Below, in pieces: positions 38,717 to 42,506 of a DNA stretch of 64,000 nt. Every line of letters begins with the position of its first letter. Positions within the stretch are counted from its first letter, which is position 1. The DNA comes from an uncultured Alphaproteobacteria bacterium. GTDB taxonomy: Bacteria; Pseudomonadota; Alphaproteobacteria; UBA11222. The position numbers and the translations under genes are program-made. The DNA is taken from positions 1 to 64,000 of the forward strand of contig CAMYID010000018.1 in NCBI GenBank assembly GCA_947258435.1, read 5' to 3'. A model generated the notes under the pieces. The model saw only the letters and a list, made by a program, of their open reading frames with translations. It was not told the DNA's origin and did no database searches.

Positions 38717-39682
38717 TCAGGCAGCCTGCTGTTGGGGCACGCGCTGCCAGACAACGGGGAAATCAGGTCCGCCCAGCGGGTCGCCATCCTGCGGCTCATA
38801 TTGCAGATGCAGTTGCCTGGGCGCATAGGGCCGCGCACGATAGCGGATATCGTCGCCACAATAGCGCAGGGATGCCGCACGGCGCACCTGATAGCGGCTG
38901 GCATTGCCACTTGTGCCATGGATCGTCTTATAGTGGTGAACAAGCACATCGCCGGGCTCGACATCGAAATGAACGACGTCATACGCATCGAGATTGTTTT
39001 CAATGTCGGGCAATTCAGCGCCCTCCGCACCGGGAAGCGACGCATGGGAGACAAAGGTATTGGGCTGATAATCCTGTGCCTTCCCGTCAATACCCCGGAC
39101 ATAAAGCATCGTCCCTGTCTCGTAACTCGCCGGATCGACGGGCACCCAGACAACACAGCATTGGTCACCTTCTATATTGAAATATGTCGAATCCTGATGA
39201 AAGGCCGTGCGTTCACGGGTGCCGGGCTCCTTGACGAAGACCTGATCGCCGAAGAAATTCACCTTGTCGGAATCAAGAAATGCGGCGGCGATCTCAGGCA
39301 GCACCCCTGACAGGCACAATTTACGAAAATCCCGGATGCGCGCGGCAACGCCGGTGTCAAGCAGGAAGCTCCCCTTTCCCTCTATCGGGTCGAGCAGCAG
39401 CGGTTTATCGGTTGCCTTGATATGCGCAACCATGCCGGCAAGATCATGCTGACCGTCGCTATTGTTCTGCAACGCTTCAAAGTCGCAGGCTTCGGCAGCG
39501 CGGGTTACCTCGCTGACATCATAGCCGGCCGGACTGTCGGCCAGCGATGCGATCGCCTGATCCATCGCGCGCCTGAACCGGTTGACCGTCCGGATATCCA
39601 GGACGCCACGCAGCAGGACAAAACCGGCCCTGTCATAGGTATAGACTTCATCACGCGTAATCGGGCGGGCGAGTTTTGTCAT
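38717..39682 (-). CDS. Phytanoyl-CoA dioxygenase (PhyH) family protein next to luxI
   Basis: A 321-aa Fe(II)/2-oxoglutarate-dependent oxygenase-fold protein. The iron facial triad can be read as His162 and Asp164 in AFHQDSTYF and His255 in KTIHGTSGN, with Arg267 or Arg268 for the 2-oxoglutarate carboxylate. These are assigned by motif, not structure. AAGGGG lies 7 nt before ATG. It starts 50 bp after the luxI stop on the same strand, so the two are probably one operon. Family members hydroxylate CoA esters, free acids or small molecules; the target here is unknown. Confidence 0.85.
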   Translation of the reverse strand: MTKLARPITRDEVYTYDRAGFVLLRGVLDIRTVNRFRRAMDQAIASLADSPAGYDVSEVTRAAEACDFEALQNNSDGQHDLAGMVAHIKATDKPLLLDPIEGKGSFLLDTGVAARIRDFRKLCLSGVLPEIAAAFLDSDKVNFFGDQVFVKEPGTRERTAFHQDSTYFNIEGDQCCVVWVPVDPASYETGTMLYVRGIDGKAQDYQPNTFVSHASLPGAEGAELPDIENNLDAYDVVHFDVEPGDVLVHHYKTIHGTSGNASRYQVRRAASLRYCGDDIRYRARPYAPRQLHLQYEPQDGDPLGGPDFPVVWQRVPQQQAA

Positions 39683-39732
39683 TACTGTACCCCTTGGGTT
39701 ACTGGCGGTTATCTCTTGCTATCGGGTCGCCA

Positions 39733-40356
39733 CTATTCGGCAGCCACCCTTTCGGGAATGCGGGCATATCGCTGAAAATCCTCAAGCACTGCCATCTTCA
39801 CCGGGATCGATACGGCAATCGCAACGCCACCGCCGGGCGCATCATAGCCGCCGCCATAGGCTGTCGGCAGGCCCAGCGGCTCGATCAGCGGGCAGATGGT
39901 CAGAAATTCGGTCAGGATCTCAATATCGGTGACCGCGCGGATGGCCGTCATACCCTCCGCTATCGCCCATTCCAGCATGGCAACAAGAATGGCCGTCTTA
40001 TGTGCCCGTTCATCCACCCCGTGATAGCGGCGGGGCACGACGATATAGCGCGTCAATTCGCAAACCGAGGGATCGGAGAAACTGGCCGTACTCTCGACCA
40101 GGTGAGGGAAACAATCTTCCGTCAGGGCACCCGCGCAAGGCGGTGTAATCCTGAGCGTGGCTTCAATATTTCCCTCACCGTCGAGGGCGATGAAATAAAC
40201 CGTATCGTCGGCATCATATTCATCGATCTCAAGGCCATTGCGGTGAGGCAAAGCCCAACCACGATTGCAAACAAAGGTTTCATATCGCAGCCTGAACATC
40301 TTGTTGAAGAGTTCAGGATATTTCACCCGTTCGCTGCCGCGCACAACAATAGCCAT
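39733..40356 (-). CDS. luxI: Acyl-homoserine-lactone synthase (LuxI family)
   Basis: A 207-aa LuxI-type enzyme that makes an AHL signal from SAM and an acyl-ACP or acyl-CoA. All the invariant residues of the family line up: Arg24, Phe28, Trp34, Asp45, Asp48, Arg69, Phe83, Glu100 and Arg103 (CELTRYIV). The chosen ATG has GGGAG at 9 nt; a longer frame from 40374 has none. luxR lies upstream on the same strand, and a lux-box-like palindrome is 62 bp before the start. The acyl chain cannot be predicted by eye. Confidence 0.92.
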   Translation of the reverse strand: MAIVVRGSERVKYPELFNKMFRLRYETFVCNRGWALPHRNGLEIDEYDADDTVYFIALDGEGNIEATLRITPPCAGALTEDCFPHLVESTASFSDPSVCELTRYIVVPRRYHGVDERAHKTAILVAMLEWAIAEGMTAIRAVTDIEILTEFLTICPLIEPLGLPTAYGGGYDAPGGGVAIAVSIPVKMAVLEDFQRYARIPERVAAE

Positions 40357-40417
40357 TCCCCAAGTCTCCCACATGATTGCGGTCGAAAGGTATGATGGCG
40401 CAAATTTCGGATTTGCT

Positions 40418-40441
40418 GTTATCCTAGGAATCTAGGACAAG
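40418..40441 (-). promoter_or_regulatory. Lux-box-like inverted repeat upstream of luxI
   Basis: The core TCCTAGGAATCTAGGA (40422-40437) is a perfect 6-4-6 inverted repeat. Extending to 10 bases per arm keeps 8 of 10 pairs (GTTATCCTAG versus the complement of CTAGGACAAG). It is centred about 74 bp before the luxI start codon, where a LuxR-type activator would overlap the -35 region. The sequence differs from the canonical ACCTGT-type box, so the call rests on symmetry and place. Confidence 0.55.
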
Positions 40442-40552
40442 AACGCGCGCTCAATAAATTAGTCAATAAAAGCAATCTATTATATCGCTTTTGGGCATCC
40501 GGATTTCTTGCAGAAAAAACAAAAAGCCCGAACCGGCCGCATATGGCATGTG

Positions 40553-41293
40553 CTAGACGACGATTTCACCGAGCCGAATAGCCTCGGCAACCGCAAAGGG
40601 TCTGCGAAACGCATCAAGTTTCTGCATCGCGCGATTGACATGCGTTGCAACCGTGGTTGCCGACAGGGTCAGGATCTGTGCGATTTCATCATCGGTCTTG
40701 CCTGCTGCAACCCATTGCAGGACTTCACGCTCCCGCGGTGACAGCATCCTGCCAGTCCGTTTTTCCCGTCGCGGCGCGACAATGGCACGCTCCAGGGCAT
40801 TATGCGCATAAATGCTGATCAGTTCGATCGCCGCGAGTGCCGAAGGTGAAACATCGGGCTCCCGCCCGCAGGGAGCCACAATCGCAATCGGCCCGCGTGT
40901 GGAAACGATCGGCACGACCGCCCCTTCCACCGCGTCGAATTCAAGACCGCTTTCAAGAACCGTTTGCTCGTCACGGCTGAGCTTACGGCGGCTCCTGACA
41001 TCGGACCATGAATAGGGTTTGAGCGTATGCCGCAATTCCAGCAGGATCGGATCGCGCATTGCGCAATTCTCTTCCTCGTATTTTTCGACGTAGCTTTGCG
41101 GACGACTGTTCATCAGCATGTGAAAGCCGTTACTGCCCGGACGATGTTGCAGATCGAAGACCGATACATTGGAAAAACCGAAACTGGCAAATTCCAACAA
41201 AGTGGTCGCAGCTATTTCATCGGGCGAGGACAGGCCGCGCACCCGTTCGACAAAATCAATTGCGCGCCGACCATAGCTTTCCGTTTCAATCAT
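40553..41293 (-). CDS. luxR: LuxR family autoinducer-binding transcriptional regulator
   Basis: A 246-aa quorum-sensing regulator. In TraR numbering the ligand pocket residues Tyr61, Asp70, Pro71, Trp85 and Gly113 appear at Tyr72, Asp81, Pro82, Trp96 and Gly124. The position of Trp57 is Tyr68, an unusual change. The C-terminal GerE helix-turn-helix (about 182-240) contains LSPREREVLQWVAAGKTDDEIAQIL with the conserved Glu, Leu and Gly. It lies 196 bp upstream of luxI, on the same strand. A weak hairpin with a T-rich tail (minus-strand transcript) follows the stop. Confidence 0.9.
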   Translation of the reverse strand: MIETESYGRRAIDFVERVRGLSSPDEIAATTLLEFASFGFSNVSVFDLQHRPGSNGFHMLMNSRPQSYVEKYEEENCAMRDPILLELRHTLKPYSWSDVRSRRKLSRDEQTVLESGLEFDAVEGAVVPIVSTRGPIAIVAPCGREPDVSPSALAAIELISIYAHNALERAIVAPRREKRTGRMLSPREREVLQWVAAGKTDDEIAQILTLSATTVATHVNRAMQKLDAFRRPFAVAEAIRLGEIVV

Positions 41294-41531: not shown

Positions 41532-42506
41532 TCAGTCATATGGCTGTTTTTGCATGACTGTTTCAGCGCCTGTGTCTTGCAATGGCTGCAGCAGCAGCTT
41601 GTCCAGCCATAGATCGCGGCGCCCAGAAAAGCTGCCGATACCAATCCGCATAGATTCATGCCCCTCACGCGGCTGCGCGCGATAGGTAGCAAAAAACCTG
41701 TCCCACCAGGGCAGATTGAAGCCGAAATTACTGTCGGTTTCATCGGGATGGACAGAATGATGCACCCGGTGCATGTCAGGGGTGACAAGAGCCAAACGCA
41801 GCCACCGGTCAACCGGCAGCGGCAGTCGCCCGTTGGCATGATTGAACATGGCGGTGGCATTCAGCATGATTTCGAAGACCAGCACGGCAATGGCAGGTGG
41901 CCCGAACAGGGCAACAAGCAACAGCTTGACCCCCATCGATAACAGGATTTCCAGCGGGTGAAACCGCAAGGCGGTGGTGACATCGAAACCAGGATCGGTA
42001 TGATGCATGCGGTGCAGCCGCCAGAATGCGGGCACCGCATGCAACACCCGATGCTGAAAATAGATCGCCAGATCAAACAGCAGGAATGCCACAAGACCCG
42101 CCAGCCAGCCAGGCATGGCAAGCAGGGGCAAAAGCCCCCAGCCGCGGGCATTGACGTAAACGGCGAATGTCGTGGCAATCAGCGGGAAAACCAACCGCAG
42201 ACACAGACTGTTTACGGCCATGATTGCAAGATTGTTCAGCCAGCGAACCCGGTGCGAATCCGGCTGCACACGGCGCGGCAGGGCGCCCTCCCACCCCCAG
42301 ACGGCAAGAAATATGGCGAGAAAACAACCAAGCCTGAGAAACGCCTCAAGACGCAGGATTGCTTCCGCAGTTAACATTCCAAGATCCCGGCCCGGCCACC
42401 ACATGACGGCAATGCCGCCCATAAAGGCAATCGGGGGTGCGGAAGCGGGTGCGGGCACCGGTCGCGGCGCATCCGCGCGCGATCGTGATGCGCTGCTATC
42501 GGGCAA
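41532..42506 (-). CDS. Sterol desaturase/fatty-acid hydroxylase superfamily protein
   Basis: A 324-aa integral membrane di-iron protein. Four to five hydrophobic segments lie in the first 190 residues. The histidine boxes are HRVLHAVPAFWRLHRMHHTDPGFD (HxxxH and HxxHH) and, later, HRVHHSVHPDETDSNFGF. Members hydroxylate or desaturate sterols, fatty acids, sphingolipids or carotenoids; the substrate is not clear. The frame opens with TTG at 42506, but ATG at 42422 is possible; neither has a strong ribosome site. It lies between the pdh-rodA run and luxR, all minus strand. Confidence 0.83.
   Translation of the reverse strand: MPDSSASRSRADAPRPVPAPASAPPIAFMGGIAVMWWPGRDLGMLTAEAILRLEAFLRLGCFLAIFLAVWGWEGALPRRVQPDSHRVRWLNNLAIMAVNSLCLRLVFPLIATTFAVYVNARGWGLLPLLAMPGWLAGLVAFLLFDLAIYFQHRVLHAVPAFWRLHRMHHTDPGFDVTTALRFHPLEILLSMGVKLLLVALFGPPAIAVLVFEIMLNATAMFNHANGRLPLPVDRWLRLALVTPDMHRVHHSVHPDETDSNFGFNLPWWDRFFATYRAQPREGHESMRIGIGSFSGRRDLWLDKLLLQPLQDTGAETVMQKQPYD

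Follow-up and report, generated by a model that had tools for sequence, protein, structure and literature searches.

A 64,000-nucleotide stretch of DNA (the window, positions 1 to 64,000 of CAMYID010000018.1) carries a luxR-luxI-phyH module at 38717-41293, with all three open reading frames (ORFs) on the minus strand. Judged from its sequence, the module is real, conserved and under selection, and its arrangement represents the known luxI-phyH theme with a second, separate PhyH clade; the function of PhyH is a prediction. In the reading that we favour, with somewhat better than even confidence, the three genes form a self-contained quorum-sensing circuit in which PhyH would oxidise the acyl-homoserine lactone (AHL) or its acyl-CoA donor to yield an oxidised active signal.

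Reports of a link between luxI and phyH in sphingomonads go back to at least 2013 and assign no function to it. A second PhyH clade with an equally strict link, together with cytochrome P450 genes adjoining luxI or fused with it, makes this a pattern in which AHL circuits have taken up oxygenases repeatedly. Should the signals be oxidised, they may escape the AHL bioreporters and targeted LC-MS lists in current use, and if the enzyme alters the signal, a new kind of bacterial message becomes testable.

The luxR-luxI-phyH module in the window

The module consists of the following features.

luxR, 40553-41293, minus strand: 246 aa, LuxR-type receptor/regulator; the position of TraR W57 is Tyr68 (codon 41090-41092)
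Lux-box-like palindrome TGTCCTAGATTCCTAGGATA, 20 bp, 40420-40439, minus strand: between luxR and luxI, upstream of luxI; likely LuxR operator
luxI, 39733-40374, minus strand: 213 aa from the first ATG, AHL synthase; probable start 40356
LuxI GGG..GGG motif (residues 174-183), 39826-39855, minus strand: in the model, the turn that joins two strands of a hairpin
Shine-Dalgarno AAGGGG of phyH, 39690-39695, minus strand: seven bases before the phyH ATG
phyH, 38717-39682, minus strand: 321 aa, Fe(II)/2-oxoglutarate oxygenase of the PhyH superfamily
PhyH residues H162 (39197-39199), D164 (39191-39193), H255 (38918-38920) and R267 (38882-38884), minus strand: iron triad and 2-oxoglutarate arginine

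The assignments of luxR, luxI and phyH made in an earlier note on this DNA hold, as the ORFs are in place and all Pfam matches exceed the curated cut-offs. By its domains (Autoind_bind PF03472, E 2.9e-20, 72.7 bits; GerE PF00196, E 7.3e-17, 61.2 bits), the luxR product is a LuxR AHL receptor. The luxI product is a LuxI AHL synthase according to its match to Autoind_synth (PF00765, E 5.8e-18, 65.5 bits against a cut-off of 24), and its catalytic set (R30, F34, W40, D51, D54, R75, E106 and R109) is invariant in 17 related LuxI proteins of the type defined below. Alignment indicates that translation of luxI probably starts at the ATG at 40356, six codons past the mechanical start. The third protein belongs by sequence to the PhyH superfamily of Fe(II)/2-oxoglutarate oxygenases (PF05721, E 3.9e-23, 83.3 bits), in agreement with the fold of its model; the H162-x-D164...H255 triad and the 2-oxoglutarate-binding R267 are invariant across 19 orthologues. 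All three genes are under purifying selection, with dN/dS values of 0.037 for phyH, 0.055 for luxR and 0.105 for luxI, with PhyH evolving more slowly than the other two. The gene content of the genome includes one LuxI, one LuxR with an AHL-binding domain and three PhyH-family genes.

luxI and phyH are separated by 50 bp on the same strand. This gap reads ...CCCAAGGGGTACAGTAATG and contains a good Shine-Dalgarno sequence. The earlier operon reading is upheld in its layout, and the operon-like spacing suggests that the two genes are co-transcribed. Scans for sigma-70 and terminator consensus sequences gave no informative signal. The palindrome at 40420-40439 is a likely operator to which LuxR would bind. 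Similar palindromes occur at a comparable place in most related loci; about 6 of 18 such sites are not distinguishable from shuffles. Counting perfect copies, the site before luxI is the sole occurrence of TCCTAGNNNNCTAGGA in the genome. Hence, beyond luxI-phyH, LuxR may directly control few genes; degenerate sites are possible in addition to the perfect ones counted.

A gene of the fatty-acid hydroxylase family (window 41532-42506; OlsE-like, below cut-off) precedes luxR in the same orientation. It was considered as a fourth member of the module and rejected, because it adjoins luxR in the sister species only; in three Methyloceanibacter-like loci (L159, L160 and L165) the homologues lie about 5 kb from the module on the other strand.

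Distribution of the module and separate PhyH clades

Here, type A denotes the clade of the window PhyH and type S the luxI-linked PhyH of sphingomonads. When 84,980 species genomes were scanned with a profile, 18 type-A loci besides the window came up, one in the sister species and 17 in Hyphomicrobiales or genomes without finer taxonomy (56-64% identity), as well as three more distant actinobacterial matches without luxI. luxI lies directly upstream of phyH in all 20 distinct type-A loci (19 and the deep paralogue L183), including a locus at a contig edge (L153), where the LuxI C-terminus with its GGG motif is readable upstream of phyH. Finding luxI upstream in 19 of 19 type-A loci and in the deep paralogue argues that the pairing is not due to chance. 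Those core loci that are readable have luxI-phyH gaps between -1 and 55 bp, and the pairwise identities of LuxR, LuxI and PhyH across loci correlate at 0.80-0.86.

A second survey covered 342 genomes of G363's family and yielded eight matches. As these are mostly the same loci as in the first scan (identical tree rows), the two surveys are not independent. The second one added the luxI-linked deep paralogue L183, and its weakest match, L176, lacks luxI and is placed outside type A. In neither the 84,980 species genomes nor the 342 family genomes was a type-A PhyH orthologue found without luxI. The earlier note had tied its case to conservation of the neighbourhood outside close relatives, and the luxI-phyH pair is conserved beyond them, in Hyphomicrobiales.

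Clustering of the ORFs around the type-A loci, with read-through ORFs overlapping the module set aside, revealed no further gene family common to most loci and thereby no conserved metabolite cluster around the module. Viral contigs contained no relative, and the plasmid matches of the window LuxI (Phenylobacterium, Roseibium) have no adjoining phyH. One type-A locus (L163:2693-6816) has two tandem luxR-luxI pairs with phyH behind the second only.

The sphingomonad link that the earlier note had mentioned is published: in Novosphingobium, phyH follows luxI in four of five loci, the arrangement is also found in other sphingomonads, and the reaction of PhyH in bacteria is not described according to these papers (PMC3704786, PMC4288048, PMC5012321). 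Named plasmid examples that we re-read are Sphingobium SYK-6 pSLPG, Sphingomonas paeninsulae, Novosphingobium ES2-1 and Sphingobium EP60837. The novR-novI-phyH loci of Sphingomonadaceae resemble the window in gene order, strand, the short luxI-phyH gap and the PhyH superfamily. In contrast to the window, they encode a PhyH of another clade, their LuxR keeps W57 and their LuxI lacks GGG..GGG; some are located on conjugative plasmids beside virB genes. The description of the pairing as a known theme is therefore correct for the gene arrangement, while the window enzyme itself is of a different clade.

This separation is evident from the low identity of the window PhyH to two luxI-linked sphingomonad-type PhyH proteins (18-21%) and from a PhyH tree of 78 rows, a quick tree with SH-aLRT support only, in which types A and S form separate clades (SH-aLRT 99 each) with many luxI-unlinked PhyH between them. 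Placement of the window PhyH in the sphingomonad clade is ruled out on these grounds. By sequence, PhyH has been recruited by luxI at least twice, or the enzyme has been replaced. A sphingomonad identity of the window organism is likewise not supported, no sphingomonad locus with type A having been found; the order of the window genome is represented in the collection by six genomes of two genera.

On a Sphingomonas paeninsulae plasmid (L179:4046-8843), luxR-luxI-phyH-gntR stands directly ahead of a lasso-peptide cluster. A Methylocystis plasmid (L182:3597-4966) carries a type-S phyH behind a truncated luxI remnant, beside an IS21 element. L093:4051-9123 shows a tandem luxR-luxI-phyH(type S)-luxR-luxI arrangement with a type III polyketide synthase gene behind it.

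Synthase, receptor and oxygenase of type A

The model of the window LuxI (pLDDT 83.4) matches the CoA-dependent synthases RpaI, MesI and BjaI best (Z 24.3, 23.3 and 22.4), followed at small intervals by LasI, TofI and EsaI (Z 21.0, 20.4 and 17.9). Type-A LuxI is also most like RpaI, MesI and BjaI in sequence and shares their conserved catalytic residues. The LuxI tree lacks resolution at the level of the CoA-dependent clade and does not place type A as its sister. The nearness in sequence and model makes a CoA donor probable for type-A LuxI. Type A differs from these synthases in its overall sequence (about 28% identity) and in having the GGG..GGG hairpin, which in the model forms the turn between strands 165-173 and 183-191. 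Of 27 type-A LuxI rows, 25 have this motif, whereas all 80 other LuxI lack it. L183 apart, type-A LuxI forms one clade (SH-aLRT 99).

The receptor deviates at a single position of a known motif. The window LuxR reads YYDPWG against WYDPWG and thus does not conform to the canonical motif: Tyr occupies the W57 position and the other five residues are kept. All 25 readable type-A LuxR rows have Tyr or Phe at this position, against Trp in 64 other and six sphingomonad-type rows. The tryptophan contacts the lactone. W57 is one of six conserved residues of the LuxR signal pocket (PMC4414361). PluR, PauR and the plant-associated LuxR solos have an altered WYDPWG motif too, with a change at the W57 position (PMC4414361); in type A, W57 alone is consistently changed, to Tyr or Phe, and a LuxI partner accompanies the receptor.

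The type-A LuxI and LuxR rows are related, include duplicates and belong to one clade, and the GGG and W57 changes are therefore counted as one event each. The deepest type-A member, L183, has the canonical W57 and no GGG, so that the phyH link came before the changes in receptor and synthase. Since W57 is kept in L183 and in sphingomonad-type LuxR, a luxI-phyH circuit does not require the receptor change. The matched changes in receptor and synthase offer directly testable residues.

The PhyH model (pLDDT 90.9) finds its best structural match in MysH (9c9n, 9ci4; Z 29.1, 2.0 A over 238 residues), the nearest solved structure, with about 30% identity and the iron triad in common. SnoK and SnoN follow (both Z 25), and human PHYH ranks below these three (Z 20.3, 16% identity). 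Compared to MysH, type-A PhyH is about 50 residues longer, has extra sequence near residues 50-115 and forms its own luxI-linked clade (SH-aLRT 99).

Possible roles of PhyH and oxygenases beside other luxI genes

In the mechanism that we favour, signal-bound LuxR would activate the luxI-phyH operon via the palindrome. LuxI would make an AHL, and PhyH, produced in step, would oxidise either this AHL once it is complete or the acyl-CoA donor, in a reaction that uses Fe(II), O2 and 2-oxoglutarate. The simplest such oxidation is a hydroxylation, and the active signal would then be an oxidised AHL. Later changes in the receptor pocket (W57Y/F) and in the synthase hairpin (GGG..GGG), both within one lineage, may be adaptations to this signal.

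The signal or its precursor is proposed as the substrate on several grounds. The recurrence of the three-gene unit across several alphaproteobacterial groups suggests that the enzyme alters the signal itself. The strictness of this unit, the matching changes in synthase and receptor, the probable use of CoA and the presence of oxygenases at other luxI loci together favour signal tailoring, and the lack of any other neighbour conserved in most loci argues against a metabolite gene cluster. Among the substrates suggested earlier (the AHL, a CoA ester feeding LuxI or a secreted metabolite), the AHL or the CoA ester is the best supported, because only three genes are conserved together and LuxI looks CoA-dependent.

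The main rival, which we regard as unlikely, is an effector role outside the signal: PhyH would oxidise some small molecule, cellular or secreted, that has no relation to the AHL, and be placed in the luxI operon only for control by cell density. The PhyH superfamily is broad, and its closest solved members, MysH, SnoK and SnoN (Z 25-29), act on natural products and not on acyl chains. The substrate of MysH is a mycosporine-type compound rather than an acyl chain, which counts against signal tailoring. So does the conservation of PhyH, which is higher (mean identity among type-A loci 65%) than that of LuxR (52%) and LuxI (47%); together with its lowest dN/dS this slow evolution suggests a fixed substrate, which might be an unrelated metabolite. 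A further point against tailoring is the Methyloceanibacter methanicus locus L165:4443-7017, in which luxR and luxI each read as frameshifted while phyH is open, due to either decay or a sequence error. However, an effector role is at odds with the absence of another biosynthetic gene conserved beside the module in relatives and of a PhyH orthologue without luxI in the surveys, and it leaves the matching LuxI and LuxR changes and the P450-LuxI fusion described below without explanation. Under signal tailoring, a fixed substrate might, as a speculation, be the lactone or amide end that is common to all AHLs.

Oxygenases other than type-A PhyH are also found with luxI. An even sample of Alphaproteobacteria comprised 76 other luxI-like loci. 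Nine of them, spread over several lineages, have a P450 gene directly downstream of luxI in the same orientation (L074, L076, L078, L092, L099, L105, L108, L125 and L129), with gaps between the ORFs of -80 to 296 bp. At L121:4669-6726 (G152:C61:190669-192726), a 686-aa ORF fuses a P450 (30-457) to an AHL synthase (481-628), with luxR divergent from it; a second species has a 96% identical copy (L192). With the two type-S PhyH loci (L127, L093), 12 of the 76 sampled loci combine luxI with an oxygenase (9 P450, 1 P450 fusion, 2 type-S PhyH). Seven genomes were checked for further P450 genes; in four, none was found besides the luxI-linked one. A literature search, with most subscription journals outside its reach, returned no relevant paper on luxI-P450 operons, and no named plasmid examples were found. 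The receptors of two luxI-P450 loci (L125, L129) carry Phe at W57; no other receptor of the sample outside type A has an aromatic residue in place of this Trp. This is suggestive, not significant.

The fusion also bears on a second, distinctly improbable alternative, in which PhyH acts as an oxidative brake that inactivates accumulating signal, either as negative feedback or to prevent a response to foreign AHLs. Co-expression with luxI would suit such feedback, and Bacillus megaterium CYP102A1 is reported to oxidise AHLs (reference cited in PMC5479921). However, a brake predicts neither a changed receptor pocket nor a changed synthase motif, and a synthase fused to an oxygenase, as with the P450, would destroy each product once made. 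Least probable is a role in acyl-donor supply, in which PhyH would alpha-oxidise branched or long acyl-CoA like human PHYH and never touch the AHL: LuxI resembles CoA-dependent synthases and the classic PHYH substrate is an acyl-CoA (PMC3704786), but human PHYH is distant (16% identity, Z 20.3 versus 29.1 for MysH) and no lyase or ligase for the remainder of alpha-oxidation is conserved nearby.

Precedents exist for the tailoring of AHL signals that we favour. Polyhydroxylated AHLs are known and a P450 step has been proposed for them (PMC5479921). In Mesorhizobium japonicum, the linked genes R1-I1-crotonase (mlr5637-5638-5639) place an enzyme gene after luxI as in the window, and this third gene is required for the unusual signal 2E,4E-C12:2-HSL (PMC10470506). 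There, the third enzyme is a crotonase rather than an Fe(II)/2-oxoglutarate oxygenase, and its role was tested by experiment, whereas that of PhyH is deduced. As a tentative extension, which we consider doubtful, PhyH might oxidise the AHL at or near the homoserine lactone head, to be read by a receptor without the lactone-contacting Trp. Type-A circuits would then exemplify a broader class of luxI-oxygenase circuits, as yet undescribed (PhyH A, PhyH S, P450 and P450-LuxI fusion), that make oxidised signals. Another candidate third gene is found at L131:4828-6386, where a luxI of the BjaI clade is followed or overlapped by a MaoC-type dehydratase ORF.
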